From Promethearchaeati archaeon (GTDB taxonomy: Archaea > Asgardarchaeota > Heimdallarchaeia > JABLTI01), in NCBI GenBank assembly GCA_013166835.1, contig JABLTI010000005.1, positions 1 through 55,879 of the forward strand: 55,879 bases of DNA, written 5' to 3'. Numbering within the stretch: position 1 is the stretch's first letter; each line of letters begins with the position of its first letter. This document shows positions 23,450 to 40,198 of the stretch, one piece after another. The notes under the pieces were generated by a model. It was given only the letters and a program-made list of their open reading frames with translations, was not told the origin of the DNA and searched no databases. A program made the position numbers and the translations under genes.

Positions 23450-26400
23450 TTATTTTAGTGGTAATTGGCAAATTGCAGCAACAAATTCATCATTTTGATC
23501 AATTTTAGCTTTTAGCTCTAATTGGGATTTTCCTTTCAAATGAGTTTTCAGAAATTGATTGTCTATTGTAGAGATTTTGGTCGAATCGATTTCTAATACA
23601 ATTTCTTTATCTTTGATTTTACTGATAATTAAATCATGAAGATCAATTTTCAATCCAGTTCCAAGTACTTTAGAAGCGGCTTCTTTTGCGACCCAAATTT
23701 TGGTTAGGAGTTCCTCATTGATTTCTTTTTGCTGATTATTAATGAGTTCTTTTTCTTTTGAACTAATTAATTCGTCAACGAAAGAATTATCTCGCTTCAC
23801 TTTGATTTCTAAATCAATACCAGTATTGTTATTTGGATCAACGATCCCAACAGCGAAACCATTGCTGTGAGTAATTGATAAGCTAATATGTTTTTTATTT
23901 AGAATTATGAAGGGTTTACCCTGCTCATTCTTTTCGATTTTAATTTTGGATAATTGTATGTTAGGATTGATTTTCCTTAAAGCTAATTTTATAGCAATTA
24001 CACCGGCAATCCATTCTTTTCTTCTTTTTTCAACTGTAAGAGATTCATATTTTGTTTTCTCATCTGCATGAAGGAATTTATCCAAGTAATCATTTTCAGA
24101 TTCAATTTTCTTGCTTAATTGTTCTACATTAACTACTTCAAGAATTGCTTCTTTTGGTATCTCAAAGAGACGCCTTAATCGTTCAATTTGAATTTCTTGA
24201 GCTTGACTAATTTCTGCTCCAAAATCAACTTGAACTGTAGAGTACTCTTCTGCTTTTAGTAAAACTTGTCCTGTTTTTGATAAAACTTCAAAATTATAGA
24301 TACTACCAAGTTCTGAATCTTTTATCTTTGAACCTCGGATGAAAGCTGCTGGTTCTGTAGCTTTGTTAATGACGAGTGATTTAATTCCAAATGGTAAACC
24401 TAATTTACTATTCTTTATTATATCAAGTAATCCCATTGATTGGAATGCTGATTCTATGATTAGGGGATCAATAGTAAAACCTTTGTTCTCAAAACTGAAT
24501 TGGTTTTTATCACTTGTAGAAACTTTGGTAATAATATCTTGTTTGAAATCATTGATTTCTCTGAGAACATGGAATAATGGCCCATGTGGGAGAATACTAT
24601 AAATTGTTTCTTTACTAACTAATTCTTTTGGATGAAGTTTTGGTTTTGTAGCGGATTCTTCCTTTCTACTGCCCAGGATTACTTCTGCTGTGAAGTGAGT
24701 ATTTGGCTTCCCTACTACAGCGCCATCTTTTATAAATTCCGAGAATATTACGCACTTCGGATTTTTAGTGGAATAATCAATACGTGTTTTTAGGATTCGA
24801 GATTTGTCATTTGTAAATTTAATAGCGGATTTGAATTCAACATCATTAAATCCAACAAGCTTCGCTTTTGGAAATGCAATTTTTGTTAGTTCTGCGAATA
24901 TCTCAAGACCGATTACGCCAGGGAGAAATGGAATATTATCGAATCTATGATGATTTAAGTAAAGATCATCCTCAAGTGAAAAGTTCCTTTCAGTTACTAT
25001 AGATCCATCATAGTTTCGTTTGATTTTTCCAATAAGTGGATACAACTTCTTATCGACAGACAGATATTTGGAAGGTGATTCCATTAAAATGCCAATTTTA
25101 CCTGCAATAACTACTTCTGGTTCTAAGCCGAATTCAAGTTCATTGATGAAAGCCTTTACTCCGTCTTTGACTGTTATAGGAGTAACTCCAGCATGTTTCA
25201 AGATAGTCATAACAGAACCTCTTGTTGCCATACCTACTTCTCCCCAAGCAGACCAACAAATTGAAGTTGCACGAATGCCTGTGGACCTTAATTGCCAGCA
25301 ATTTTTGGAAAGATAATCATTGGCAGCGGAATAATCAACTTGCCCAGCATTTCCATATCTACCAGCAACAGAAGAGAAGCATTTGATGAATTTAACCTTC
25401 TTCAAGTTCACATTTTGAAGTAAATTGTCTAAACCAATAGCTTTCACATTATAGACTAAATCAAATTCCTCTGGTTTTTTATCTTTAATTAATCGGGATA
25501 TCTCTAATCCAGCACCATGAATTATTCCAATAATTTCTTGATTAAAATCTAATCTGATTTGATCTATAGTAGATTTCATTTGCTCAGGATTAACAACATT
25601 AGTGGTATAATATTTCACTTCAGATCCGAGAGAAGCTAGTTCTTCTTTTGCTTTCTCTATATCAATTGCTTTACTGATTTTAGACCATTCTTTCTCAATT
25701 AAAACAGGAGTGACTCTATCATTGTTTTGTTTGAGATCACTAATCAATTGTTCTTTTAGTTGAGCTAACCTTTCTTGATCATATTTAGCAATTTCAGTGA
25801 TTTTATCAGGTAATTCTTCAATACCTATTAACGCTAATTTTAGTTGATATTTTCTTGCCAATTCCCTAGTAATTTCATATGTGATACCTAATGCACCACC
25901 AGTAATCAAAACTAATTCGTCTTTTGCGATTGTAAATGGTTGTTCAGTAGGTTCGATAGGAGATTCCACTGTAATGAAAACTTTTCTCTTGCCTTCTTCT
26001 GTATAGGAAACCTCAAGAGATCCATCTCCAGCATACAACTCTTCAATAGCAAATTTAGGATTACTACAAGAAACACACTTGACAATACTATTGGTAAACT
26101 CTCGAGCAATTGCTTTAGTTAAACCTGTAAGGGAACCAGAAATAGGAGAGTATTTTCCTTCCCAGCCAAAGGAGGTTTCTGTCTTGCATATTGTTAAAAT
26201 CATAGGTGATTCAGAATATTTTACATCACGACAAAGGGTAAAGAAGATTCTTGCTGTTCTATCATGTTTATTACTTTGAGTTGTTTTTGGTTCAATGTAA
26301 ATTAGACCATCAATTACTTCTTCAGGTAATTCTTTGAGTATTTTGTCTCGAGTATTTTGGCTTTTCAAATCGATATGTTTTACTAATATAACTTTTTTAT

Positions 26401-29400
26401 TTTCTAATTGAGCAATTATCTCATTTGTAAATGGACTTGCTTCACCCGCAACTATGAACTTCTTATCCTTTAATTTTAGTTTTTCAATTTTAGGCATTGG
26501 GGCATCGATTAATTGCAAAGTTAAGCGTTGAGCAGGGACATAATCATCTTTGATTTCAGATACTGTAGTTGCAATTGCTGCTGTGGATGGTTGTAGAGCT
26601 TTATCAATTCGACTAAGAATGTAATCAGCAATTTTATTGACAGTAGAATAATCCTGTATCTGTATACCTTCTTCTCGAGGAAGATTCCATTTCGATCTAA
26701 TAATTCCAAGCATTTCAGCTTGTTTGACAGTATCAATCCCAAGATCTTCTTCTAATTCCATATCAGATTCTATCATATCTGCAGGATAACCTGTTTTTTC
26801 AGCAATTAAACTCAATACTTCATGAATGATTTCATCTTTCTTCCCTTCAAGGCTAACCACTTGTTCACCTTTCACTTCTGCAGAAGGTTGTGCTACAGAA
26901 GTTTGTGCTTCAGATGGTTTGGCTATAGGTGAGGTTATTTTCGAAGCAAGATAAGCAGCTATTTTGTTTACTGTGGAATAGTCTTGTATTCTAACACCTT
27001 CTTCTCGAGGTAGATCATATTGAGTTCTAAAAATACCAAAAAGCTCCGCCTGTTTGACTGTATCTATTCCAAGATCTTCTTCCAGATTCATATCAGGTTC
27101 AATCATATCAGAGGGATAGCCAGTTTTTTCTGATATCAGATCAATTATACTTTTAACAATTGCTCCATTAGCAACTACTCCTTTTAAAGGAATTGAAACT
27201 GGAAAAACTTGTTCTTGTTTTACAATTGATGGGTCTTCTTTTAATCGTAAAGTTCTTTTTACAACTTCAAGGGTTTTTCTACTTCCACCAATATCGTTTA
27301 ACCATTGCCCATATGCTTGTCCTTCTAGTCGTCCACTTGAAGTGTTTAGTCTAAAGAGTGCCATTGTTAATTGGGAACCAAAACCAGCTGCGAATCTTAG
27401 CGCATATTTAACATTGTATTTTCCACCTTTGGATAGATTCAGTGGTCCTAATTCTGGATCAAGTTCTTTCCAATTAGCTACAGGTGGAACAATACCTTTC
27501 TCAAGGATCTTAATTGCTACAACGTCTTCTATCCCTGCACCCATTGCGTGACCTGTAAATCCTTTGGTATTAGCTATTACTATTCTATCTAACATTGAGC
27601 CAAATGTTTTCCTTAATGCATCAACTTCAGCAGAAGCACTTCCACCTCGAGCTGGAGTATAAGTTTCATGACTAACAAATACCATTTCCTTAGCCATTTC
27701 CTCTCGAGAGATATTGAATCTTCTCTCGATTATAGAGATGAATTCATCCATTTGCGAAGAAATGTGCTCTCTATCTAATCTTGTTCCATGAAATGCTGAA
27801 TTAACAATATGAGTCCCAAGGAGATCCACAATTGGTTTTATTCCTCGAGTTTGAATTGCTGATTCCGACTCAATAATTACACCGACAGCACCCATTCCAA
27901 TGATCATTCCATGTCGTCTTTTATCGAATGGTAATGCTGCTTCTTTCACATCCTCTTTTGTAGTTGCTGCACCGACAGCTAGGAAACCAGAAGAAATCCA
28001 TTCCAACATTTCCTCATTAGTTACATCATCTGCTGCAATTACAATTACTCGCTGACATCTCCCAGTTCTAATCCAATCTTCAGCAATAGCTATAGCTTGT
28101 GTTGTAGAGGAACATGCAGCATTAACTTGTGTGTTTGGACCTCTCGCTCGTATGAATTGAGCGAATTGTGAGTGACCCATTGATAAAATCTCGAAAAGGA
28201 ATTTCCTACTAAATTGGAATCTTGAGTCTTTATCAGATGTGATTTGTGTTTTATTCTCTTGATACCACTGCAGCATTCGATCCTTTGATTTCTTATCTGA
28301 AATTTGTTCAATTAATTCATCAAATAATAAGTGAATTTCTTCTTTGTTTTTAGTTTTATATTTATCAGCTAGAAATTCAGAAAGAACTGAAATTAAATTA
28401 CTGTAAGCTGGAAAAGCAGAAGCAAATACAATTCCAGTTTCATTTCTAAGTGATTCTGGAAGTGCCCAACCCTTGACTATTTCCTTACCAACAGAGGTTT
28501 TCACTTTTAGTGGCATTAAAGGTATGCCAGCATCTCTTAGTGCCTCGATTCCAGCAGCAAACGCTAATTGGAAAGTGATATCCAATAAATCGGTAAAATC
28601 AGCATCCACACCATATTCTTTTGATAGATCAAATTGACCCTTTTGAGCTGCAAGTTTAATTACTTCTCCAACATCAGAAATTGTTTGGAATTGCGCACCA
28701 TTGACTGCATCTTTTACTAATCTTACAATGTTCTTATCAACCATCTTCTCACGCATATTCATTGGGATAAGATCAATGAAATTCTCTCCAGCAAGGATGT
28801 CATCAAAGTTTGAATCCCCGAAAACTTTCCTATCCTTACCTGGAAGACCGATTGAGATACCTGTAATTCCAATTGCTTCAGTATTGATGTTTAGTTTATC
28901 AAATTCTCTTTTCTCTTTTAGAGCTTCAGCAATTGTGCTTTTGTAGGTGTCAAATCCCGCTTTTAGAAATGCTCGAATAGCTGGGGCTTGTAATTCTAAA
29001 TAATCTGTGAAAGAGTCATCACTGATAACTTCGACAAGTTCTTGTGTTTCTAGAACATCAAAAGGTGATTCCTTGTGTATTATTTGAGTTCTTGTTTCTA
29101 TGGGTGGCGACACAGCAGAAACAAGTTGTTGTTTTGGTTTCTTTTCCAAAAATCTCTCAAGTGGTTTTTTGAATTCTTGAGTATAAAATGAATCGTCTAG
29201 TTTTGGAATCTTTAATGGAAATCCAAAAGATCCTAAAGCAGCAATCACTTCACTTAGATGTTGCATTTCACCCTTCTTAGGGTGACATGCTGCTAGTGCA
29301 ATAAAGTCATTCTTATCTTCTAATATTGCTCGTGCAAAACTCGTTAGTACATATTTAGGACCAATTTCAATAAAGGTTCTAACTCCTTCTTTCTCATACA

Positions 29401-32400
29401 TATTGACTATTTGCTTTTGCCATTCAACAGGAGAAGATACTTGCTTACACAATAATGGAACTATTTTGTCTCTTCCTTCTGGATAAATTTCACCAGTTAC
29501 GTTACTTGAAATTGGAATTATCGATTTATTATAAGTTAGAGGCTCAATCGATTTTCTGTATGCTTGAATAGCAGGTTTCACAATGTCAGAGTGAAAAGCA
29601 GCTGATACAGGTAAAGGAATTGCAGTTATACCTTCTTCAGTAAACAATTTTATTGCTTCTTTTATTGCAGATGATGCTCCAGATATAACAGTTTGTTTTG
29701 GTGAATTCTTATTAGCAGCAATCACATAACCTTTAACTTTCTTCAGTATCTTCTCTACTTGTTCATACCCAGCACCAACACCTGCCATCATTCCTTTATC
29801 CATTGCTTGGAGTGAAGCCATTGCTTGACCTCTTGGAATAATAGCTAATATTCCATCTCTGAAACTAAATATTCCTGAAGCAACCAATGCTGCATATTCA
29901 CCCATACTGTGTCCTGCCACAAAATCAGGTTTTATTCCAAATTGAATTAGAAGTCTGAATATGGCTATATCAAGAACGAAAATTGCTGGTTGAGTTATTT
30001 CTGTTTGCTTTAATAACTCTATTACTTCTTCATCACTTTTGTTTACAGCGAAAATAATCTCTGAGATTTTGAAACCTAACAACTCTTCCATTATTTCATC
30101 TGCTTCTTTGAATGTGGAACGAACAATTTCGAATCTTTCGTAAAGTTCTCTACCCATTCTAACATATTGGCTTCCTTGTCCTGGAAATAGAAAAGCAATT
30201 TTTCCGAGTTTGTGATCTTCGCCATAAAATATTCCCTTATTTCTCAGAATGGTTCGTTTCTCTTTGCTTTTCAAGCCACTCAATAATTGATCAATTGAAC
30301 TTGATAATTCAGTTAATGAGTTACAAGTAATTCCAGCTCTAACAGGTTTCTTAAGTGATTTAGTTGAATCAAAAGCAATTTCCCGAACACGTGGACCTAT
30401 ACCATCAATCGCAAAACTACTTGATATTTGTTTATTCTTAAGCTCAAGAATGCTTTTCTCTAATTCAGCTTCGGTTTCTCCACCAAAGAATATTGCATCG
30501 GTTTCTAGTGTTTTATATTGTTTCAAATACTCTTGCCATTTTTCTTGATTCAAAATTATATCAAATTCTTGTTTTACTGGAGAAACATCTGGAGAAATCT
30601 TGACACCAGCTAATAATCTTTGTAATTCTGATGGGCTAATAAGTGTTGGTAGATGACCTTTGGTTTTACCAGGAATATATTCTTCTATAATTGTATGGTA
30701 ATTTGTTCCACCAAACCCGAAGGAGGAAACTCCTGCAATACGTGTTCCTGTTTTTGGTTCAATCCATTTTTGACTCTTAGTATTGACAAAAAATGGTGAG
30801 ATATCCCAATTGATGTTTGGATTTGGAATCTCAAAATTAATTGAAGGAGGTAATATTTTGTGATGGAGAGCTAAAGCGACTTTAATTAATGAAGCAATTC
30901 CGGCAGCACTTTTAAGATGACCAATTTGACTTTTTATTGAACCAAGAGCAATAGATGAATAAGGAGCTTTTTCTGCGAGTTCATTTAGAACTTGTAATTC
31001 TATTACATCTCCAACAGTAGTACTGGTTCCGTGGGCTTCGACCAATTGAAGATCAGAAAAGACCACATCAGCTTGGTCTAAAGCTCTTTGTATTGCTAAT
31101 TTTTGACCAATAGGATTTGGAGCAGTAATTCCCTTACCTTTTCCATCAGAAGAGGAACCAAGACCTCTTACTACAGCATAAATTTTATGTCCATCTTTAA
31201 TAGCGTCAGATAATCGTTTAAGGACAATAAAACCAGCTCCTTCACCCATTACAAAACCATTTGCTCGTTTATCAAATGGGTAAGAACCATCGGCTGCTAA
31301 AGCCCCTATTTTAGAGAATTTTATAAAAGTTGTTGGATCAAGAGAACAATCAGCTCCACCACAAAGAGCAATGTCACATTCTTTATCCAGAAGTCCTTTA
31401 GCTGCAACGTTTAATGCAGCTAAGCTGGATGCACATGCTGCGTCTGTCGTCATATTTTTACCACGTAGATTGAAGACATTAGCAATTCTACCTGCAATAA
31501 CATTCGATAATTCTCCAGGCATTGAATCTTCATTTAATGGTTTCAATCGCAAATCAAAATCATCTTCTACAAATCTCTTGATGTCAGCCCATAGTTTGGG
31601 ATCCATGTCTTTGAAAGAGGATGATCTTTCAATTGCGTTAAAAGTTTCTGGGAGAAAGATTCTTCTTGAATAATGAGAACGAATTTCATCACCCATTGAA
31701 TTACCAATTATTATTGCGGTATTACTATGATCTACAGTTTTCCCAAGCAATCCTGCATCCATTAAAGCTTCTTTCGCTGCTACAAGAGCGAATTTCTGCA
31801 CTTCGCCCATTGTTATGGCAACTTTAGGTGGAATTTTAAATTCCAAGGAATCAAATGTGAAGTTTTTAATTGTAGCTGCAATTTTTGCATAAGTTTTGCC
31901 AGGGGCATTTCTATCCGCACTATAAAATAAGTCTAAATCATTTAACCAACGTTCTTTGGGTATTTCATGTATAGAATTCACTTTCTTCTTAATATTCTTC
32001 CAATAAGTCTCAATATTTGGAGCGTCAGGTAAAACACATCCAAGACCAATTATCGCTACACCTTCTCCCTCGAATATTTCTGTATTTACTATTTGTGAAT
32101 TTGACTCCACAGTAATCGTTTGTTGCTGTATTACAGGTTGTTTGGTTATTTTGGACATTTTCTCGAATTTTTCAAGTAATTCTGTAATTCTACCCATTAG
32201 CACTTTCTGTGAATTTCCAACTAATTCTTTATGTAAATGATCGATAGATCTTATACAACGAAGACTCGTGACAATTTGACCAATAAGGTAATTTCCTTTT
32301 TGGTACTGAATTTTTTCATCAACATACATGAATCTATTTGGTTTATCATCTTCTCCATCTGGATTCCAAATTTCTCCAAGTGCAGCAATTCTTGTTGCTC

Positions 32401-34249
32401 CTAGATTGTCTCTTTCATACTGATGTTTTCTCTCTTTTAATGGAACACCTTGTTCTATTCTATCGTGTTCTCTTTTTATAATTTCACGAGCACATGGTGT
32501 TGGTATTGATCTTGCTCGAGTGTTTACAGTATCGCCTAAAACCATTGTTTCCTTAGCGTTGAGAGCTAATTGCTGATATAATGGTTGAATTGCACCTGTC
32601 CCAACGATTTCTTTAACTAGAATGTATGCGGAACCAACCCACATTATTCCATTCATTAATTTTGGCAATGCTGATGCAATAATTCCTGCAATTGCTGCAG
32701 AAAATCTATCACCAATTCCACCTGCAAATGCTACAGTTACTTTTTGATTGCTTTGCTCAATAGACTCTTTTTGTTGTATTAGTTGATGTAAAGAAAGCTC
32801 CCACAAAACAAAACTGGTTAAGAAACCAATATGACCACCACATTCCATTCCTTCCAGAACGAGATTTTTAACATCTGATTTGATAGCTTCTGCAAAAATA
32901 ATTGGAGACGGTGTATGAAGAAACGTCTTAATTCCATAACTCATTACTTCTTTCGCATGATCAATAGTTCCAGCAGCTACAACAGCAAATGAAGGCTTAG
33001 TTTCTTTCAATATTTCAAGGTGTGCATCTCGAGCAGTTTTATTTGCATCCAAACAAATAATTCCACAACCAAATGGTTTTCCACCTAATTTTTCTTTTGT
33101 CTTTTTAATGAGAGTTCTGGTTTGATTTGGGAAAAGTGATCCTAAAGCTAGGATTGGTAATGCGCCTGCGTCGGAAATAACTTTAGCAAAAGTGGGATTT
33201 TCAGAAATATTTGCCATTGGACCTTGAATAATTGGGTATTTGATTCCTAATTCTTTTGCAATTTCATTTTTTTTCCTAAATGGATAATTTGTAACTGCAT
33301 TCCTGATTTGCTTCTCAGTTTGCTTCAATAATCCGTTAATTATTCCTAATACATTAGAAAACTTACTAGTCAGAATTTTGGCAAAAGGAACATCTTGTCC
33401 TAGTGGAATTAAACAATTAGAAAGATCATCTTTTTCAAACATCTCTCTTTGAGATAATAATTGTTCAGTGAATTGTTTTGTTCTTTCCTTCTTAGTTAGT
33501 TTAAGCAATTCCTTTTCTTTCTGTTGGAATTCTTTGACGACTCTTGTTCCTAATCTTGCATATACTCGGTATTTATTTTTGGTTGATTCACCTAGTACTT
33601 TAGTATCAGTCGCATCTAATTTTTCTATAAATTCTTTTGCATTTTTAGATAAGGGACTTTCAGGTGTAAGGTACAACTGTGAATCAAGAATGACCCCTTT
33701 AGCTCCTATACCAATAATTGCTGGAACAGTGTATAAACCCATACCACCTTGAATTATGAATGGTAATCCTGCATCAGCGAATTGCTGAGATAGAATAAAT
33801 GAAGTTTCATCACCAACACGACCTGCTGCTTCATTGCCTTTTACAATAAATGCCTGAGCCCACTTCTTCTCATATGCTTCTTTTAGAGAAATTACTTCGG
33901 CTAATAATACAATTGATTTTTTAGATGCATTGTTCAAATCACTTTTTGTTAATTGAAAATCACCAATTACAAGGATTAATGGAAAAGAGTCATTGTGGAG
34001 TTTTAAAACTAAATCTAGTTGTTCGTGATCACAAACCCTGACCCCAAAAGAACTTGTAAATTCTGTCAAACTGTTCTGTAAGAGTTGTTCTGATTCTTGT
34101 TGAAGAAGTCGTTCCAAGTCAACAAAACCAATTCCACCTGCATTTATGACTGCTTTAACTAAACTAGTGTTTAGCAATCCAGGGGGATTATATGCAAAAA
34201 TTGGTTTACGTTCACTTATGATAGATTCAAAATCATATTTTGGTGCCAT
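23450..34249 (-). CDS. Iterative type I PKS/FAS-like megasynthase: ER-ER-KS-AT-KS-ACP-ACP-KR-DH-PPTase
   Basis: 3599 residues; ATG 34249 has AGGAG eight bases upstream. Domain order: NPD/FabK-like domain 1 (about 1-330; GNEAAGRVG where the His is Arg); NPD domain 2 (about 333-660; ECGGHIG, His473); KS1 (about 727-1190; Cys939, His1073, His1111); AT (about 1350-1645; GHSMGE, Ser1448, malonyl-type AFHS); KS2 (about 1790-2275; Cys2046, His2194 in SHETYTP, His2234); two ACPs (LGIDTVKQAE, attachment residue Thr2397 and Thr2507 instead of Ser); KR (GGALGI near 2780, Tyr2973); DH double hotdog (HH 3100-3101, Asp3261); Sfp-type PPTase (Asp3479, KEAASK with Glu3523). All steps for full reduction of a malonyl-derived chain are present; no thioesterase. 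It resembles a fused PfaD-A-C-E set; product unknown. Acyl-CoA carboxylase genes are adjacent. Confidence 0.93.
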   Translation of the reverse strand: MAPKYDFESIISERKPIFAYNPPGLLNTSLVKAVINAGGIGFVDLERLLQQESEQLLQNSLTEFTSSFGVRVCDHEQLDLVLKLHNDSFPLILVIGDFQLTKSDLNNASKKSIVLLAEVISLKEAYEKKWAQAFIVKGNEAAGRVGDETSFILSQQFADAGLPFIIQGGMGLYTVPAIIGIGAKGVILDSQLYLTPESPLSKNAKEFIEKLDATDTKVLGESTKNKYRVYARLGTRVVKEFQQKEKELLKLTKKERTKQFTEQLLSQREMFEKDDLSNCLIPLGQDVPFAKILTSKFSNVLGIINGLLKQTEKQIRNAVTNYPFRKKNEIAKELGIKYPIIQGPMANISENPTFAKVISDAGALPILALGSLFPNQTRTLIKKTKEKLGGKPFGCGIICLDANKTARDAHLEILKETKPSFAVVAAGTIDHAKEVMSYGIKTFLHTPSPIIFAEAIKSDVKNLVLEGMECGGHIGFLTSFVLWELSLHQLIQQKESIEQSNQKVTVAFAGGIGDRFSAAIAGIIASALPKLMNGIMWVGSAYILVKEIVGTGAIQPLYQQLALNAKETMVLGDTVNTRARSIPTPCAREIIKREHDRIEQGVPLKERKHQYERDNLGATRIAALGEIWNPDGEDDKPNRFMYVDEKIQYQKGNYLIGQIVTSLRCIRSIDHLHKELVGNSQKVLMGRITELLEKFEKMSKITKQPVIQQQTITVESNSQIVNTEIFEGEGVAIIGLGCVLPDAPNIETYWKNIKKKVNSIHEIPKERWLNDLDLFYSADRNAPGKTYAKIAATIKNFTFDSLEFKIPPKVAITMGEVQKFALVAAKEALMDAGLLGKTVDHSNTAIIIGNSMGDEIRSHYSRRIFLPETFNAIERSSSFKDMDPKLWADIKRFVEDDFDLRLKPLNEDSMPGELSNVIAGRIANVFNLRGKNMTTDAACASSLAALNVAAKGLLDKECDIALCGGADCSLDPTTFIKFSKIGALAADGSYPFDKRANGFVMGEGAGFIVLKRLSDAIKDGHKIYAVVRGLGSSSDGKGKGITAPNPIGQKLAIQRALDQADVVFSDLQLVEAHGTSTTVGDVIELQVLNELAEKAPYSSIALGSIKSQIGHLKSAAGIASLIKVALALHHKILPPSINFEIPNPNINWDISPFFVNTKSQKWIEPKTGTRIAGVSSFGFGGTNYHTIIEEYIPGKTKGHLPTLISPSELQRLLAGVKISPDVSPVKQEFDIILNQEKWQEYLKQYKTLETDAIFFGGETEAELEKSILELKNKQISSSFAIDGIGPRVREIAFDSTKSLKKPVRAGITCNSLTELSSSIDQLLSGLKSKEKRTILRNKGIFYGEDHKLGKIAFLFPGQGSQYVRMGRELYERFEIVRSTFKEADEIMEELLGFKISEIIFAVNKSDEEVIELLKQTEITQPAIFVLDIAIFRLLIQFGIKPDFVAGHSMGEYAALVASGIFSFRDGILAIIPRGQAMASLQAMDKGMMAGVGAGYEQVEKILKKVKGYVIAANKNSPKQTVISGASSAIKEAIKLFTEEGITAIPLPVSAAFHSDIVKPAIQAYRKSIEPLTYNKSIIPISSNVTGEIYPEGRDKIVPLLCKQVSSPVEWQKQIVNMYEKEGVRTFIEIGPKYVLTSFARAILEDKNDFIALAACHPKKGEMQHLSEVIAALGSFGFPLKIPKLDDSFYTQEFKKPLERFLEKKPKQQLVSAVSPPIETRTQIIHKESPFDVLETQELVEVISDDSFTDYLELQAPAIRAFLKAGFDTYKSTIAEALKEKREFDKLNINTEAIGITGISIGLPGKDRKVFGDSNFDDILAGENFIDLIPMNMREKMVDKNIVRLVKDAVNGAQFQTISDVGEVIKLAAQKGQFDLSKEYGVDADFTDLLDITFQLAFAAGIEALRDAGIPLMPLKVKTSVGKEIVKGWALPESLRNETGIVFASAFPAYSNLISVLSEFLADKYKTKNKEEIHLLFDELIEQISDKKSKDRMLQWYQENKTQITSDKDSRFQFSRKFLFEILSMGHSQFAQFIRARGPNTQVNAACSSTTQAIAIAEDWIRTGRCQRVIVIAADDVTNEEMLEWISSGFLAVGAATTKEDVKEAALPFDKRRHGMIIGMGAVGVIIESESAIQTRGIKPIVDLLGTHIVNSAFHGTRLDREHISSQMDEFISIIERRFNISREEMAKEMVFVSHETYTPARGGSASAEVDALRKTFGSMLDRIVIANTKGFTGHAMGAGIEDVVAIKILEKGIVPPVANWKELDPELGPLNLSKGGKYNVKYALRFAAGFGSQLTMALFRLNTSSGRLEGQAYGQWLNDIGGSRKTLEVVKRTLRLKEDPSIVKQEQVFPVSIPLKGVVANGAIVKSIIDLISEKTGYPSDMIEPDMNLEEDLGIDTVKQAELFGIFRTQYDLPREEGVRIQDYSTVNKIAAYLASKITSPIAKPSEAQTSVAQPSAEVKGEQVVSLEGKKDEIIHEVLSLIAEKTGYPADMIESDMELEEDLGIDTVKQAEMLGIIRSKWNLPREEGIQIQDYSTVNKIADYILSRIDKALQPSTAAIATTVSEIKDDYVPAQRLTLQLIDAPMPKIEKLKLKDKKFIVAGEASPFTNEIIAQLENKKVILVKHIDLKSQNTRDKILKELPEEVIDGLIYIEPKTTQSNKHDRTARIFFTLCRDVKYSESPMILTICKTETSFGWEGKYSPISGSLTGLTKAIAREFTNSIVKCVSCSNPKFAIEELYAGDGSLEVSYTEEGKRKVFITVESPIEPTEQPFTIAKDELVLITGGALGITYEITRELARKYQLKLALIGIEELPDKITEIAKYDQERLAQLKEQLISDLKQNNDRVTPVLIEKEWSKISKAIDIEKAKEELASLGSEVKYYTTNVVNPEQMKSTIDQIRLDFNQEIIGIIHGAGLEISRLIKDKKPEEFDLVYNVKAIGLDNLLQNVNLKKVKFIKCFSSVAGRYGNAGQVDYSAANDYLSKNCWQLRSTGIRATSICWSAWGEVGMATRGSVMTILKHAGVTPITVKDGVKAFINELEFGLEPEVVIAGKIGILMESPSKYLSVDKKLYPLIGKIKRNYDGSIVTERNFSLEDDLYLNHHRFDNIPFLPGVIGLEIFAELTKIAFPKAKLVGFNDVEFKSAIKFTNDKSRILKTRIDYSTKNPKCVIFSEFIKDGAVVGKPNTHFTAEVILGSRKEESATKPKLHPKELVSKETIYSILPHGPLFHVLREINDFKQDIITKVSTSDKNQFSFENKGFTIDPLIIESAFQSMGLLDIIKNSKLGLPFGIKSLVINKATEPAAFIRGSKIKDSELGSIYNFEVLSKTGQVLLKAEEYSTVQVDFGAEISQAQEIQIERLRRLFEIPKEAILEVVNVEQLSKKIESENDYLDKFLHADEKTKYESLTVEKRRKEWIAGVIAIKLALRKINPNIQLSKIKIEKNEQGKPFIILNKKHISLSITHSNGFAVGIVDPNNNTGIDLEIKVKRDNSFVDELISSKEKELINNQQKEINEELLTKIWVAKEAASKVLGTGLKIDLHDLIISKIKDKEIVLEIDSTKISTIDNQFLKTHLKGKSQLELKAKIDQNDEFVAAICQLPLK

Positions 34250-34295
34250 TTTTCTATCTCCTGATTAGTAAATATTTGATAGTGATTTTGTGAGC

Positions 34296-35897
34296 TTAAA
34301 GGGGTACATTCCCGTGTTTTTTGTTTAGCTTTCGTTCTCTCTTTCGTAATAAAGGCCATAATGCGGCTATCAATTTTTGACGAGTCTCACTTGGGATTAT
34401 AACATCATCAATATAGCCTTTCTCAGCTGCAAGATATGGATTATTAAATTCTTCGGCATAATCATCCTTCAAATCAGCCATCAAGTCCTCTTGATTCTCA
34501 GCTGCTGCTAGTTCTCTTCTGTATAGAATTTGAACAGCGCCCTCTGAACCCATAACAGCGATTTCTGCTGTTGGCCAAGCAAAATTCATGTCATTTGCTA
34601 AATGCTTTGAACCCATAACAATGTAAGCCCCACCATAGGCTTTTCTTGTAATAACAGTTAATTTTGGAACAGTAGCTTCTGCATAAGCAAAGATAAGTTT
34701 TGCACCATGTTTAATTATTCCATTGTGTTCTTGGTCTAATCCAGGTAGGAATCCTGGCACATCAACAAAAGTGAGAATAGGAATATTGAACGCATCACAG
34801 AAACGAATGAAACGAGCCGCTTTAACTGAAGCATTGATATCTAAAGCTCCTGCAAGGATACTTGGTTGATTAGCGACGATCCCTATTGGGTGTCCATTTA
34901 ATCTACCAAATCCAATAATGATATTTTGAGCATACTTTTTCTGTATTTCTAAAAAGTTACCTCGATCAACAACTCGAAGAATTATTTCTCTCATATTGTA
35001 TGGTTCTTGGGGATCACTGGGTATAATTGAATTTAGTTCTTCAAGAACATACCCATTTATAGTTGAAGTATCTTTCAAAGGAGGATCTTCTAAATTGTTG
35101 GAAGGTAAATAAGAGAGAAGCGCTTTGATGAGCTCAATGGATTCAATCTCATCGGAACCGACCAGATGAGCAATCCCAGATAGCGAACTATGTGTGGACG
35201 CTCCACCGAGTTCTTCAAAGGACGCTTCCTCTCCAGTCACAGATTTTACTACTGTGGGACCAGTGACAAACATATAAGAAGTATCTTCTGTCATGATGAC
35301 AAAATCTGTAAGAGCTGGGGAGTATACTGCACCACCAGCAGATGGACCGACAATACAAGATATTTGAGGAATAATTCCAGAAGCACGAACATTTCTTATG
35401 AAAATGTCTCCGTAACCTGCTAAAGAATTAGCTCCTTCTTGAATTCTTGCTCCACCAGAATCATTAAAACCTATAACTGGTGCACCATTTTGCACTGCTT
35501 GATCCATTAATTGAGTTATTTTTTTAGCGTGAGCTTCACCAAGACTTCCACCGAGAATAGTAAAATCTTGACTATAGACATAAATTAGTTTACCATTTAC
35601 TTGACCGAAACCTGTAATTACACCATCTGTGTATATTTTCTTTTTATCTAAACCGAAATTTCTGCTATTATGTCTTACAAACATATTGGTTTCTGTGAAT
35701 GAACCTGGATCAAGTAACAAATCTATTCTTTGACGAGCTGTTAGTTTACCTTTTGCTAACTGCTTCTGAATAGCTTCTTCTCCGCCACCTAATAGAGCTT
35801 CTTCCCTTTTTTCAATTAATTTGTTTATTTTTTTCTTTGATGAGTCCTCTTCAGACAGCATATCATCTGCCCTTTCAAGCTCTGATTTCAAATTCAT
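34296..35897 (-). CDS. Acyl-CoA carboxylase carboxyltransferase (beta) subunit, acetyl-CoA-type residue
   Basis: 533 residues from ATG 35897, eight bases after AGGAG; the ATG at 35903 overlaps that site. Both crotonase halves are intact: GKLTARQRIDLLLDPGSF, ILGGSLGEAHAKKI, NDSGGARIQEG, GPSAGGAVYSPALTDF, then FVDVPGFLPG and WPTAEIAVMGSEGAV. In the second half, KAYGGAYIVMGS has Ile (Ile428 counted from 35903, 426 here) at the position that is Asp in PccB and Ile in acetyl-accepting AccB of Streptomyces, so acetyl-CoA may be a substrate, giving malonyl-CoA. It stops 46 bp before the megasynthase starts: same transcript. Its partners, biotin carboxylase and carrier, are divergent. Confidence 0.93.
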   Translation of the reverse strand: MNLKSELERADDMLSEEDSSKKKINKLIEKREEALLGGGEEAIQKQLAKGKLTARQRIDLLLDPGSFTETNMFVRHNSRNFGLDKKKIYTDGVITGFGQVNGKLIYVYSQDFTILGGSLGEAHAKKITQLMDQAVQNGAPVIGFNDSGGARIQEGANSLAGYGDIFIRNVRASGIIPQISCIVGPSAGGAVYSPALTDFVIMTEDTSYMFVTGPTVVKSVTGEEASFEELGGASTHSSLSGIAHLVGSDEIESIELIKALLSYLPSNNLEDPPLKDTSTINGYVLEELNSIIPSDPQEPYNMREIILRVVDRGNFLEIQKKYAQNIIIGFGRLNGHPIGIVANQPSILAGALDINASVKAARFIRFCDAFNIPILTFVDVPGFLPGLDQEHNGIIKHGAKLIFAYAEATVPKLTVITRKAYGGAYIVMGSKHLANDMNFAWPTAEIAVMGSEGAVQILYRRELAAAENQEDLMADLKDDYAEEFNNPYLAAEKGYIDDVIIPSETRQKLIAALWPLLRKRERKLNKKHGNVPL

Positions 35898-35974
35898 ATT
35901 CATATCTCCTGTTCACAGTCTAATGCCAAACTGTATACTGAAACGACCTTTAGCTAATCAAAAACGTATCTTGT

Positions 35975-36030
35975 TTTTACTGTAAAAGCATATTTTCTGA
36001 TGATTCAGCATTTTACAGTTTTACTGTAAC
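35975..36030. promoter_or_regulatory. Repeated palindromes in the divergent carboxylase promoter
   Basis: Between the divergent carboxyltransferase and biotin carboxylase genes are TTTTACTGTAAAA (35975-35987), a second copy TTTTACTGTAAC (36019-36030) and, directly before it, TTTTACAG (36011-36018). The consensus is TTTTAC(T/A)GTAAAA. The two full copies are 44 bp apart centre to centre, about four helical turns, as for a factor binding cooperatively on one DNA face. Position suits joint control of both transcripts; the factor is unknown. Confidence 0.55.
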
Positions 36031-36074
36031 ATATCGTTAGTCTTAATAGCAAAGCCCTTCTTGCAGAAAGTATC

Positions 36075-37547
36075 ATGTTTGATACTCTGTTAGTAGCTAA
36101 CAGAGGTGAAATTGCTGTTAGAATTATTCGAGCTGCTCGTGAGCTCGATATTAAGACTTATGCAGTTTATAGCCCTGTTGACAAGAATGCACTTCACGTG
36201 AAATTAGCAGATGAATCTTTCCCTTTAATGGAAGATGGAGTCACACCAAGTTACTTAGATATAGATCAAATATTGGCTTGCTGTTTACGTGAAAACATAA
36301 CGAGTGTTCATCCAGGATATGGTTTTCTCTCTGAGAGTGAAATCTTTGCAGAGACTTTGATTAAACATGGAGTTAATTTCATAGGACCTCCACCAAAAGT
36401 GATTGAACTTCTTGGTAATAAGGTCAAGTCTCGGGAAAAAGCAGTTGAAGTTGGTTTACCAGTCCCACTAGGATCAGAAATTATTGAAAATGAGAGACAT
36501 GGGATTAAAGAGGCTAGATTAATCGGTTATCCAGTTCTTGTAAAAGCAGTTTTTGGTGGGGGTGGAATGGGCATTCAACGAGCCAGAACACCCAGAGAGT
36601 TGAGAATTGCAATATCAAATGCAAGTGCACAAGCGAAGTCTGCTTTTGGACGAGGAGATGTTTTCTTAGAGAAATTTATTGAGCAACCAAGACACATTGA
36701 ATTTCAAATTCTTGCAGATAACTATGGAAATGTAGTTCACTTAGGAGAAAGAGAATGCTCAATTCAAAGAAGAAATCAGAAATTACTTGAGGAAGCTCCA
36801 TCCACAGCAATCTCCAAAGAAGAAAGAAAAAGCATTGGAACTTTGGTTTGTAAACTTGCGAAAAAATTAGGGTATAAAAGTGCTGGAACAATTGAATTTC
36901 TGTACAAGGATAATCAAGTTATGTTTAATGAAATTAATCCACGAATTCAAGTTGAACATCCTGTTACTGAAATGTTAACTGGAAAGGATATTGTAAAAGA
37001 ACAAATCAAAATAGCTCAAGGAGAAGAATTATCTTTTAAGCAATCTGACATCAAATTCAGAGGTCATGCAATGGAACTTCGGATAAACGCTGAGGATCCA
37101 TTACAGAATTTTCAACCTACTCCAGGGTACGTCAGTAGATTTGTAGCTCCCGGTGGACCGCATATTAGATTTGACACAGCTATTTACGAAGGATATGAAA
37201 TTCCTGATTGTTATGATTCATTAATTGGAAAATTAATTGTAAGTGCAGAATCTCGGGAAGAAGTAATCTCCCGGGCGCAGAATGCTCTAAAAGAACTAAT
37301 TATTATTGGTTTCCCAAACAACATTACATTCTTTGATCAGCTGCTTCAAGATCGACACTTCCAGCAAGGAGACATTAGTATCAACTTCATAGAAGATAGA
37401 AAGATCCTTATGAAATTGGAAAAGAACGTTTGTGCGTTAGCTTCAGCCTTATTTGCTGTTGGACTAAAGAAAAGCCAAATGAATTTACCCAGCCTTTCAG
37501 AAAATTGGCGAATGAAAGGAAAGATGGATGGAATTGGGAGGGACTAA
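36075..37547 (+). CDS. accC: Biotin carboxylase subunit of acyl-CoA carboxylase
   Basis: 490 residues, the length of a stand-alone biotin carboxylase. N-terminal domain begins FDTLLVANRGEIAVRIIRAARELDI; the ATP-grasp part has the glycine-rich lid AVFGGGGMGIQRA, then the HIEFQILADNYGNVVHLGERECSIQRRNQK stretch (seen at about residues 207-236) and the metal/ATP-binding FNEINPRIQVEHPVTE. The C-terminal domain (SRFVAPGGPHIRFD, YDSLIGKLIV) is complete. It carboxylates biotin on the carrier encoded 2 bp downstream with ATP and bicarbonate. The last 40 residues are not conserved in the family. Confidence 0.95.
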   Translation: MFDTLLVANRGEIAVRIIRAARELDIKTYAVYSPVDKNALHVKLADESFPLMEDGVTPSYLDIDQILACCLRENITSVHPGYGFLSESEIFAETLIKHGVNFIGPPPKVIELLGNKVKSREKAVEVGLPVPLGSEIIENERHGIKEARLIGYPVLVKAVFGGGGMGIQRARTPRELRIAISNASAQAKSAFGRGDVFLEKFIEQPRHIEFQILADNYGNVVHLGERECSIQRRNQKLLEEAPSTAISKEERKSIGTLVCKLAKKLGYKSAGTIEFLYKDNQVMFNEINPRIQVEHPVTEMLTGKDIVKEQIKIAQGEELSFKQSDIKFRGHAMELRINAEDPLQNFQPTPGYVSRFVAPGGPHIRFDTAIYEGYEIPDCYDSLIGKLIVSAESREEVISRAQNALKELIIIGFPNNITFFDQLLQDRHFQQGDISINFIEDRKILMKLEKNVCALASALFAVGLKKSQMNLPSLSENWRMKGKMDGIGRD

Positions 37548-37549
37548 TA

Positions 37550-38026
37550 TTGGAGAAGAAGTATAAAGTACGATTGCATGGGTCAGAATTTGATTTAGAG
37601 CAAACTAAGAAAGGAATCAAAGTAAATAATTATCAATTTAAGCCTGAAGTTATTTTCAACGGGAAATTCTACCGTGTTTTTGTAAATGGCAGAGAACTGA
37701 AAGTGGAATTTAGAGATAATGATATTTTATTGGATGGCAAAATTATTGATTTTGATTTCAAATCAGATCCACATATACAAACAAGAAAAGGTTCTATTCA
37801 CAGGAAAAGTGCAGACATACTTGCAGCTATTCCCGGAAAAATTGTGGATATTAGGGTGAACGAAGGAGATGAGGTAGCAGATCAACAATGTCTGCTAGTT
37901 TTGGAATCAATGAAAATGAGAAATGAAATACTCTCACCAATGGCAGGTGTAATCGACAGTATTTCTGTAAGTATTGGTGATCAAGTAAAATCTAGACAAT
38001 TAATGATTAAGATAAAATTAAAATAA
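37550..38026 (+). CDS. Biotin carboxyl carrier protein
   Basis: 158 residues from TTG 37550, eight bases after GGGAGG (37536-37541); longer frames upstream run inside the biotin carboxylase gene. The C-terminal 75 residues form the biotinyl domain: AAIPGKIVDIRVNEGDEV, then VLESMKMRNEILSP with the biotin acceptor Lys122 about 36 residues before the end, and GVIDSISVSIGDQV. The N-terminal part is a beta-rich domain as in archaeal and actinobacterial acyl-CoA carboxylase carriers. It is translationally coupled to accC. The ligase that would load it lies at 38860-39624. Confidence 0.93.
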   Translation: MEKKYKVRLHGSEFDLEQTKKGIKVNNYQFKPEVIFNGKFYRVFVNGRELKVEFRDNDILLDGKIIDFDFKSDPHIQTRKGSIHRKSADILAAIPGKIVDIRVNEGDEVADQQCLLVLESMKMRNEILSPMAGVIDSISVSIGDQVKSRQLMIKIKLK

Positions 38027-38052
38027 CGAATTAAAACAGGAAGAAATCAAGT

Positions 38053-38856
38053 ATGATAAGGGAAATAGTCAATATACCATATTATAATAGTAATTTGAGT
38101 GCAGTGTTTTTTTATCCAAATAATGGTAAGGATAAGTATCCAGTTGTTTGCAAAGCACATGGTTTGGTATCGAATAATTTTGAGAAAGAAGAAGAATTAG
38201 CAACTATGCTTACAGAAGAAGGCATTGCTTATTTTATGTTTCATTTCACAGGTTTTTTTGAAAGCTCTGGAGAGCATTCAATACAAACACAATTAACAAA
38301 TCTTGATTACATCATTACTTATCTTACAAATCATCCTAAAGTTGATCCAAAAAGAATAGGTTTACTTGGTGTTAGTATGGGAGCAGCAATTGCTGTTTGT
38401 CATGCTTCAAGAGATCCCAGAATATCCTCAGTAGTCCTTCAAGCACCTTTATACGATTTTGATTTCATTGTTAATTATCCTGAGTTTACAGCGATGTTGG
38501 AAGGTTTAGCTCTAACAGGCATGATAAGAGTGCCAGAAGAGGGGGCTAAGGATATGCTTATTCAAGATATAAAGGGTAATAACCCTCTAAATTGCATAAA
38601 TAAGATATCTCCAAGACCTCTTCTGATAATTGCAGGAGCAAATGATACATTTATGCCACTTTCAGGAATAAAGAAATTATATAAACAAGCTTTGTTTCCA
38701 AAAGAATTCAAATCTGTACAAAATGCAGATCATAATCTTACAAATTATTTTGCAAGATTTGAAACCTTTAATTTAATCAAAGAGTTCTTCATAGATAATT
38801 TAAAACACATTTATTTGCATTTGTCGAAAGCTTATAGCAGAGTTAGTGTGATTTGA
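38053..38856 (+). CDS. Alpha/beta hydrolase (possible chain-release thioesterase)
   Basis: 267 residues, 26 bp after the carrier gene, with AGGAAG upstream of ATG 38053. Alpha/beta hydrolase landmarks: KAHG (oxyanion strand), nucleophile elbow LLGVSMGAAIA, acid strand LLIIAGANDTFMP (Asp) and NADHNLTNY (catalytic His). It resembles the small lipase/dienelactone-hydrolase group (SGEHSI, HPKVDPKRIGL). The megasynthase has no thioesterase domain, and this gene is in the carboxylase operon, so acyl-ACP or acyl-CoA hydrolysis is a reasonable inference, untested. Confidence 0.85.
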   Translation: MIREIVNIPYYNSNLSAVFFYPNNGKDKYPVVCKAHGLVSNNFEKEEELATMLTEEGIAYFMFHFTGFFESSGEHSIQTQLTNLDYIITYLTNHPKVDPKRIGLLGVSMGAAIAVCHASRDPRISSVVLQAPLYDFDFIVNYPEFTAMLEGLALTGMIRVPEEGAKDMLIQDIKGNNPLNCINKISPRPLLIIAGANDTFMPLSGIKKLYKQALFPKEFKSVQNADHNLTNYFARFETFNLIKEFFIDNLKHIYLHLSKAYSRVSVI

Positions 38857-38859
38857 GTT

Positions 38860-39624
38860 TCAATCCTCAAATCCTATGACTTGTTCAATCTCTCCAACAG
38901 AGATAATTTCTTCCCCTGTGGAAGTTTGGATTATCAAATCACCATTTGGGGTAATGCCTTTTTCAATGCCTTCAATTAGCTTTTCTTTCAAACGAACTGT
39001 TACATTTGATTCATAACTCACAGATCGTTCTTTCCAAAGAGGAGTGATATTTGGGAGTAAACCCTTTTCAAATTGTAAGACAATAGCACTCTGAGTAGAT
39101 AAAATAACATCACGAATTTTTTCTAATGAAAATTCTTTTTCTGTTTCATGATAAATGGTTGTAGCTGTTTCTTGTAATTCATCTGATAATGATGAAAGTT
39201 TGAAATTTACATTTAATCCTACTCCAAGAATTAGATGTTTTAAGAAGATTTCTTGAGAGCTAAGATCTATTAGGATTCCCCCAACCTTCTTATTTTTCAA
39301 AAAAAGATCGTTTGGCCATTTAACTCTGAAGGGTAAGTCAAGTAATTCTTCAAGACTTTCTGAGATTGCTAAACCTATTCTTACTGAAAATCCTTGAAAA
39401 TACTTCAAGGGAATTTTTTTCTGCAGTATCGTTGACATCCATAATCCACCAGAAGGAGATGCCCAATTTCGATCTAACTGTCCTTTGCCATGTATTTGTT
39501 TCTTTGCCTGAATGACTAATCCGTGATTTGATTTTCCTTGTTTAATATATTCCTTAGCTAATAATTGAGTTGATTCAATTTCATCAAATACAATGATTTT
39601 TCCACTTGTCGAGGTCATTTTCAT
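38860..39624 (-). CDS. birA: Biotin--[carboxyl carrier protein] ligase, no HTH domain
   Basis: 254 residues. The BPL catalytic domain is complete: DEIESTQLLAKEY, QIHGKGQLDRNWASPSGGLW (the GRGRxxRxW loop here is GKGQLDRNW), RVKWPNDLFLKNKKVGGIL (conserved KWPND and KVGGIL) and LGVGLNVNF. The C-terminal small domain (VTVRLKEKLIEGIEKGI, ISVGEIEQV) follows. No N-terminal winged helix is present, so it is a catalytic-only ligase, not a biotin repressor. It should activate biotin to biotinyl-AMP and load the BCCP next to it. Convergent with the hydrolase gene (3-bp gap). Confidence 0.93.
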   Translation of the reverse strand: MKMTSTSGKIIVFDEIESTQLLAKEYIKQGKSNHGLVIQAKKQIHGKGQLDRNWASPSGGLWMSTILQKKIPLKYFQGFSVRIGLAISESLEELLDLPFRVKWPNDLFLKNKKVGGILIDLSSQEIFLKHLILGVGLNVNFKLSSLSDELQETATTIYHETEKEFSLEKIRDVILSTQSAIVLQFEKGLLPNITPLWKERSVSYESNVTVRLKEKLIEGIEKGITPNGDLIIQTSTGEEIISVGEIEQVIGFED

Positions 39625-39803: not shown

Positions 39804-40184
39804 ATGCCTAAAAATGAAATTAAAAAGTATCCTCTGAAGAAACCAATAAAAGTTAACGAAATACTTGTGGACCTTTACAAATGTCAAGCGGATATTAATA
39901 ATGAAACTGCCCTTCTCACACTTGTTACAGAAGCAGCGAAGAAGGCTGGAGCACATGTTTTACAAGCATCTGTTCATAGATTTTCTCCTATGGGCTGCAG
40001 TGTGGTCGTAATTCTTAAAGAAACTCATATTTCAATTCATACTTGGCCAGAATTTGGTTTCGTAGCATTAGATATTTTCCTTTGTGGGGAATCCTTAGAT
40101 CCATATGTTGCTTGGAACCATATTAAAGAAACTCTGAAACCTGAGACTTTTGTAATAAAAGAACTTCCTCGTGAAATTAAGTAA
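39804..40184 (+). CDS. speD: S-adenosylmethionine decarboxylase-like protein with Thr at the pyruvoyl site
   Basis: 126 residues from ATG 39804, the length of the prokaryotic class 1 proenzyme. The family pattern is clear: ASVHRFSPMGCSVVVILKETHISIHTWPEFGF, then ALDIFLCG. In known members the processing site is ESH, where the Ser becomes the pyruvoyl group; here it is E73-T74-H75. The codon is ACT, so this is not a one-base miscall to TCT or AGT without further change. His and Cys94 of the active site are kept. Decarboxylated AdoMet supplies aminopropyl groups to the BpsA-type enzyme encoded 14 bp downstream. Whether Thr permits autoprocessing is open. Confidence 0.85.
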   Translation: MPKNEIKKYPLKKPIKVNEILVDLYKCQADINNETALLTLVTEAAKKAGAHVLQASVHRFSPMGCSVVVILKETHISIHTWPEFGFVALDIFLCGESLDPYVAWNHIKETLKPETFVIKELPREIK

Positions 40185-40198
40185 TAGTTGGAGTTTTA

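Follow-up and report, generated by a model that had tools for sequence, protein, structure and literature searches.

A gene block at positions 23450 to 39624 of contig JABLTI010000005.1, from an Asgard archaeon of the class Heimdallarchaeia, contains a giant multidomain protein (megasynthase) that is probably an iterative fatty-acid synthase (FAS). The genes and their motifs suggest that the adjacent carboxylase supplies it with malonyl-CoA and that the adjacent hydrolase releases the finished acid. De novo fatty-acid synthesis of this kind would perhaps feed acyl-glycerolipids. The stretch analysed (the window, 55,879 bases) is a complete contig, G000:C123, of a 3.56-Mb metagenome-assembled genome (MAG) with an estimated completeness of 84.75% and contamination of 6.79%. 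Genomes compared carry G numbers (G000 is the window's own) and fetched sequence stretches L numbers; the comparison covered 58 genomes of the class, nine of them from the genus. Papers with a PMC number are cited for those parts of their text that were available.

A sequence-only reading of the window had reported a megasynthase, three acyl-CoA carboxylase subunits, a biotin ligase, a release-type hydrolase and an internal phosphopantetheinyl transferase (PPTase) within 16 kb. This inventory was borne out, as every gene named forms a single open frame at the coordinates given here, with Pfam matches far above chance. The locus had also been called self-contained, which is nearly so for synthesis; genes that may use the product are located elsewhere in the genome.

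The megasynthase, its carrier domains and its substrate supply

The megasynthase (23450..34249, minus strand; 3,599 residues) has the order ER-ER-KS-AT-KS-ACP-ACP-KR-DH-PPTase (ER, enoyl reductase; KS, ketosynthase; AT, acyltransferase; ACP, acyl carrier protein; KR, ketoreductase; DH, dehydratase), assigned with Pfam, NCBIfam and the best 120 of 4,170 homologues. The N-terminal ER1 (33260..34249, bounds approximate) is a FabK/nitronate-monooxygenase-like part, recognised from a Pfam NMO match in two stretches and from FabK structures. The FabK-like ER2 (32150..33259) has a CGGHIG motif and scores 120.8 bits on TIGR03151, below the cut-off of 453.1. These are followed by KS1 of the polyketide synthase (PKS) and polyunsaturated fatty acid (PUFA) synthase type (30530..32092; Cys939, His1073, His1111) and by an AT (29270..30232) with Ser1448 in a GHS motif. 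The AT also has an AAFH motif, which we take to be a sign of malonyl specificity, and is likely malonyl-specific. KS2 (27260..28702; Cys2046, His2194, His2234) is FabF-like over its C-terminal two thirds. The tandem ACP (26555..27202) precedes the KR (25160..26482; TGGALG, Ser2960, Tyr2973, Asn2977), the double hot-dog DH (24050..25132; His3101, Asp3261) and a PPTase of the Sfp/AcpS type (23453..24052; GIDLE, WVAKEAASK). All are on the minus strand, the AT, KR, DH and PPTase being assigned from Pfam and alignment and the ACPs from PDB alignment and a motif search.

Pfam E-values within the protein are 6.7e-76 for KS, 9.1e-45 for AT, 5.1e-30 for KR and 2.4e-23 for the NMO/FabK-type ER (two stretches), with weaker values for ACPS (6e-13), PP-binding (9.4e-11) and PS-DH (6.6e-6). 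One chain thus holds the KS, AT, ACP, KR, DH and ER domains of an iterative type I FAS/PKS, with a Cys-His-His set in each of its two KS domains and the ER in tandem. Catalytic residues were counted on the 113 of the best 120 homologues that have at least 2,900 residues; those of both KS domains, the AT and the KR, and the DH histidine, are kept in 113/113. The sequence-only reading had described the motifs as intact, which holds for these residues and fails for the carrier domains, both of which have Thr in place of the phosphopantetheine Ser. Six genus genomes also encode a stand-alone dehydratase of the double hot-dog type, whose tail resembles a truncated PPTase (L037:12035-13345, L069-L073). 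It is 36% identical to the end of the megasynthase and has N, E or D at its second catalytic position; a further DegV/FakB-like gene (L037:5796-6722) lies near it, together with two DUF998 genes.

Both carrier domains read LGIDTVKQ, with Thr (codons ACA and ACT) at residues 2397 (27059-27061) and 2507 (26729-26731), and in PDB alignments this Thr falls on the Ser of solved ACPs. Among the best 120 homologues, 325 of 337 carrier motifs have Thr and 12 have Ser; 115 proteins have Thr only, three are mixed and two have Ser only, in a count by motif search that unusual carriers may escape. Since a stand-alone 81-residue ACP elsewhere in G000 has Ser, Thr carriers are not a habit of the whole genome. 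The pattern suggests that the Thr of the carrier domains carries the phosphopantetheine arm. If it could not be armed, the megasynthase would be inactive or would use a carrier in trans, and the usual attachment residue is indeed Ser, as in the solved ACPs aligned here, while the stand-alone Ser-ACP adjoins an AcpS-like gene. Such a loss is nonetheless most unlikely: the sequence of a dead domain should drift, whereas Thr persists beside catalytic residues that are invariant, the fused PPTase keeps its motifs in most homologues, and the stand-alone ACP also adjoins an FkbH-like gene, which points to another pathway. As a separate observation, the Ser-ACP, FkbH-like, AcpS-like and polysaccharide deacetylase genes stand in a row (L067:2817-6267; G000:C260) and form a second carrier pathway.

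The carboxyltransferase gene (CT; 34296..35903, minus strand; Pfam 2.5e-194, PDB alignment) is separated from the megasynthase by 46 bases and is of the PccB type. Biotin carboxylase (BC; 36075..37547, plus strand; Pfam, NCBIfam) and the biotin carboxyl carrier protein (BCCP; 37550..38026, plus strand; Pfam), with the biotin lysine in ESMKM, complete the subunit set expected of an acetyl-CoA carboxylase (PccB/AccB type). The BCCP frame is open from 37430, and the start at 37550 is likelier (158 residues, as in G058). A biotin protein ligase (38860..39624, minus strand; Pfam) passes TIGR00121 with 170.6 bits (cut-off 83.1).

Within its GGAYIVM motif the CT has Ile at a position occupied by I, V and L in three differing Streptomyces coelicolor PccB structures. 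This is presumably PccB residue 422, and we assume that the three structures are engineered forms and that Ile permits acetyl-CoA. The residue was found in 15/15 distinct CT genes (17 rows, of which L065 and L066 repeat L040 and L041). There is one match to the carboxyltransferase family PF01039 per genome in 9/9 genus genomes, two of the matches being fragments, and the CT adjoins the megasynthase in all six genus genomes with context inspected (the window, G055, G056, G057, G058 and G060). It could be supposed that the carboxylase is a chance neighbour serving propionyl-CoA or another use, as its closest PDB relatives are mostly named propionyl-CoA carboxylase and its best NCBIfam model, below the cut-off, is methylmalonyl-CoA decarboxylase alpha. 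The constant Ile, the single match per genome and a carboxylase-megasynthase gene order that survives deep divergence make this highly improbable. On G025:C9 (stretches L051 and L052) a single megasynthase is flanked by CT and BC in two copies each, a possible carboxylase duplication.

The alpha/beta hydrolase (38053..38856, plus strand; Pfam, alignment, model) is likely an acyl-releasing thioesterase or esterase. The columns of its Ser108-Asp198-His227 triad are invariant in 32 sequences. Its structural model has a mean pLDDT of 87.4. Lipases, feruloyl esterases and the esterase PET46 are its best structural matches, and the top 50 also include the thioesterase DcsB. Of the 43 homologues found, the labelled ones are Heimdallarchaeota or Asgard, except for one Bathyarchaeia and one Zixibacteria.

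The proposed pathway, predicted from sequence, would begin with the attachment of biotin to BCCP by the biotin ligase and the conversion of acetyl-CoA to malonyl-CoA by BC and CT. Both carrier domains would receive their phosphopantetheine on Thr from the fused PPTase, and the AT would transfer malonyl to both of them. Condensation would be carried out by KS1 and/or KS2, with full reduction in each round by the KR, DH and FabK-like ER, until the hydrolase cuts off the free fatty acid. No FabA-type domain was matched by Pfam at E 0.001 in a search confined to the megasynthase, and a saturated chain is therefore expected. An acyl chain made from acetyl-CoA via malonyl-CoA had been proposed from the sequence, and the domains, the CT specificity residue and the single CT per genome support it; the type of product is a prediction.

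A synthase of the PUFA-synthase kind, making a secondary lipid or polyketide rather than ordinary fatty acids, is an unlikely but serious alternative. The best NCBIfam model is PfaA (TIGR02813), matched with 918.5 bits, and the synthase is patchy in the phylum; an earlier study filed a Heimdallarchaeota PKS nearest to PUFA compounds in its available text (PMC7472256). The PfaA score is, however, below its cut-off of 1010.1 bits. There is one AT match and no FabA-like DH match, KS2 retains the Cys that a chain-length factor lacks, the PPTase is fused, the carboxylase is adjacent, and all nine genus genomes have at least part of the megasynthase.

Several points weigh against the fatty-acid synthase reading itself. 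At the second catalytic position of the DH, which is Asp in this protein, the 17 best matches vary between D, N, E, Q, H, I and K. The phosphopantetheine Ser expected of an iterative type I FAS/PKS carrier is absent, with Thr in its place. The hydrolase may act on other esters; no listed structural neighbour above DcsB is named a thioesterase. In G038 and G040, two of the six genomes from other families, no match to the hydrolase or to the biotin ligase lies near the synthase.

Compared with known systems, the megasynthase shares with the PUFA synthases (PfaA-PfaE) the KS-AT-tandem ACP-KR-DH order and the presence of a PPTase, and those systems have a separate ER (PMC4882568, available part). 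It differs in being one chain, with an N-terminal tandem ER and one FabF-like, Cys-bearing KS2 after the AT, and in its single AT, Thr carrier, fused C-terminal PPTase and lack of a FabA-like DH. The ER of PfaD is presumably akin to the FabK/NMO-like ER.

Fungal and mycobacterial type I FAS are giant chains with a flavin mononucleotide (FMN) TIM-barrel ER, and the fungal enzyme has a C-terminal PPTase. The megasynthase resembles them in all of these features, and differs in domain order, with KS-AT early and two KS domains. A fungal-type KS was considered for KS2 and rejected, as no fungal FAS chain is among the 60 PDB matches listed, which are mostly FabF-like.

An ACP-independent FAS complex for de novo archaeal fatty acids has been described for Thermoprotei and Asgardarchaeota (Schmerling et al. 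2024, preprint, as cited in the available parts of PMC11948995 and PMC11486757); unlike that complex, the megasynthase locus has ACP, AT, PPTase and carboxylase. A putative PKS cluster closest to PUFA KS domains has also been reported from Heimdallarchaeota (PMC7472256). No description of a fused synthase with carboxylase, of Thr carriers or of an archaeal Fak-PlsY gene order was found in the literature searched, which did not extend to bioRxiv and most subscription papers.

Gene order, shared control and archaeal origin

The BC, BCCP and hydrolase genes are oriented opposite to CT and megasynthase, both groups starting from a common 171-base region (35904..36074), and the biotin ligase is convergent with the hydrolase. 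A pattern search found two palindromes in this divergent promoter region, an exact TTTAC(A/T)GTAAA at 35976-35986 and one with a single mismatch at 36020-36030. In 8/8 genus genomes whose region was fetched, the palindrome lies in the CT-BC interval or, on contigs that end there, immediately upstream of CT. In six of the eight a second one, full or matching at 10 of 11 positions, lies 42-45 bases away; in G060 and G056 only a weaker one was seen, by eye. The exact pattern occurs once in the window, where 0.2 occurrences are expected on the basis of 20 first-order Markov sequences, and with one mismatch five times against 3.7 expected. Outside this region it occurs a single time, in L060, in the 698 kb of fetched stretches numbered L037 and above (overlaps counted), and within L001-L036 only at the same place in G057. 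The conservation of the palindrome between CT and BC argues for joint control of both operons.

The palindromes suggest that the region is bound by a dimeric regulator. An adjacent 617-residue protein (21444..23297, minus strand), which is without a Pfam or NCBIfam match, is only a candidate for this possible regulator.

The order of the 617-residue gene, megasynthase and CT, each adjoining the next, is kept in 5/5 genus relatives inspected. That of BC, BCCP and hydrolase is kept in four of the five, the contig of G057 ending first, and that of the biotin ligase (BirA), S-adenosylmethionine decarboxylase (AdoMetDC) and BpsA in three, where the contigs of G057 and G060 end first. The flanks far beyond the locus are also syntenic within the genus, and genus contigs that carry the gene order reach 461 kb. 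In six genomes of other families, where the megasynthase ends compared are 29-45% identical, CT, BC and BCCP adjoin the megasynthase in 6/6 and hydrolase and BirA in 4/6. Two of these six, G008 (3,326,783 bases) and G086 (4,361,485 bases), are single-contig genomes of the phylum that carry the related block.

A separate contig scan gave just three loci, one from a close relative and two distant fragments, and distribution figures were therefore taken from a search of the genome collection (residues 700-3599 as query; E <= 1e-50), whose matches are not all shown to be whole synthases of the same kind. They occur in 9/9 genus genomes (some in pieces), 43/58 of the class and 45/227 of the phylum, or 7/45 of its high-quality genomes. 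This search gave no match in 14/14 genomes of two families and in one genome of a third, all in the same class. A Candidatus Heimdallarchaeota MAG record is 88% identical over the megasynthase.

An unrooted FastTree phylogeny was built from the 113 homologues (the seven below 2,900 residues being dropped) and 1,070 columns; most of its rows have no organism label and long branches meet in it. One branch, with local support of 100, splits 65 rows, including the window protein, from 48. Labels on the 65-row side are Asgard or plain archaeon, except for a single Bathyarchaeia, Zixibacteria and Methanobacteriota. The 48-row side is labelled Thermoplasmatota, Desulfomonile and relatives, Thermodesulfobacteriota, Spirochaetota and Pseudomonadota.

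The sequence-only reading had proposed a search for the synteny in Asgard genomes; the gene order recurs in the genus and, diverged, in the phylum, including the single-contig genomes. It had also named bacterial misassembly, or close relatives that are all bacterial, as grounds for giving up the archaeal reading, and the synteny, the long contigs and the position on the Asgard side of the tree show neither. A chimeric contig or bacterial contamination could be suspected from the estimated contamination of the MAG. It was ruled out, with only the slightest chance left to it, by the synteny of both flanks across the genus, the long contigs and single-contig genomes, and the tree. The GC and GC3 of the block are near the values of neighbouring genes.

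Other features of the window lie outside the block. AdoMetDC and a BpsA-like branched-chain polyamine synthase (39804-41377) adjoin the biotin ligase, as in the three genus relatives noted above. A protein with a match to translocon-associated-protein-beta is encoded at 44174-45658, and a ThsB-like TIR-domain protein, possibly a defence gene, at 209-718, close to the contig end. Rfam and tRNA scans across the window gave no matches.

Possible use of the product and the lipids of the genus

Elsewhere in G000, on contig C106, three genes stand side by side: one is FakA-like, with Dak2 and a FakA middle domain, one belongs to the DegV/FakB family and one encodes PlsY. Through them the acid may be phosphorylated by the FakA-like and FakB-like proteins and its acyl group transferred to glycerol phosphate by PlsY, a less certain step whose chances are put at slightly under even. 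Six genus genomes were inspected for this order (all but G056, G057 and G060) and four have it (G000, G055, G059, G061); the contig of G062 ends within FakA, and a stop interrupts the FakB frame of G058. The C106 PlsY passes TIGR00023 (153.6 bits, cut-off 137.2), the only copy of ten in G000 to be scored. The PlsY family is expanded in the genus, with 4-13 matches per genome (71 in total, some of them pieces), and the GG(K/R)G motif is kept in seven of the ten G000 homologues.

The arrangement is like the Gram-positive FakA-FakB-PlsY route in that the three families adjoin, the C106 PlsY passes its model and FakA has N and L domains, with the L-domain Cys and HxH kept in 5/5 Asgard proteins checked. 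It is unlike that route in that Asgard FakA is without the FakB-binding C domain and PlsC was not found in the genus. The 44 closest FakA homologues (312-328 residues) are also without PF13684. The N and L domains are reported to be enough for kinase activity in Staphylococcus aureus FakA, with weaker FakB affinity (PMC9136124). Bacterial PlsY accepts both glycerol 1-phosphate (G1P) and glycerol 3-phosphate (G3P) (PMC13400652), and S. aureus suppressors, with proposed early release of fatty acids, bypass PlsX (PMC13245860), as far as the available text of these sources goes. PlsY and PlsC are scattered in Asgard archaea, where fatty-acid synthesis genes have already been proposed (PMC6737245).

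This use of the product has several points against it. The FakA-like protein scores 253.6 bits on the FakA equivalog NF038248, whose cut-off is 975, and in three of the ten G000 PlsY homologues N or Q replaces the K/R of GG(K/R)G. PlsC was found in 0/9 genus genomes, and a scan of five Fak-PlsY stretches did not reveal the palindrome of the synthase locus. In the available part of PMC6431249, archaeal PlsX is given as not found and membrane use of archaeal PlsY/PlsC as thought unlikely, with PlsY and PlsC seen in Asgard bins.

The archaeal lipid genes of the genus are unusual at the G1P dehydrogenase (G1PDH; PF13685). All nine genomes have weak partial matches only, with best E-values per genome of 5.1e-10 to 5.6e-6, while a strong match (E <= 4.3e-21) is present in 48 of the 49 remaining genomes of the class; the exception, G034 (68% complete), has none. 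Both G000 matches, the only weak genus matches covered by the equivalog scan, are generic iron alcohol dehydrogenases with 22 and 21 bits on the G1PDH equivalog NF002022 (cut-off 413). Three controls from other families scored 467, 422 and 406 bits, the last just under the cut-off.

Geranylgeranylglyceryl phosphate (GGGP) synthase was matched in 0/9 genus and 17/58 class genomes by a model that misses many, since 48 class members have strong G1PDH matches. Its loss was dropped as a sign of ether-lipid loss for this reason, and because a cultured Asgard archaeon with ether lipids is also without a recognised GGGP synthase (PMC7015854, available part). CarS is present in 9/9 genus genomes, and archaeal-type lipids are probably still made because it is retained. 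A complete switch to bacterial lipids is weakened by this retention, by the absence of PlsC from the genus and by GpsA, found in 0/58 class genomes.

It is tentatively proposed, with considerable doubt, that the genus combines a Thr-armed, malonyl-CoA type I synthase with departure from the G1P dehydrogenase route, and that FakA, FakB and the expanded PlsY family lead to bacterial-type or mixed acyl lipids. Mixed lipids and a switch to bacterial lipids are regarded as equally likely.

A natural Thr carrier would change how ACPs are recognised, as this family would be overlooked or ranked too low by searches that require Ser. Fatty-acid ester lipids are found in eukaryotes, although an Asgard archaeon is believed to have been their host lineage. 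A conserved Asgard locus of the ACP/malonyl-CoA type, together with acyl-phosphate and PlsY genes in the same genome, provides named genes for testing whether an archaeon of this kind makes fatty acids and uses them. The way in which fatty-acid lipids could have been acquired by archaeal relatives of eukaryotes thereby becomes a directly testable question.

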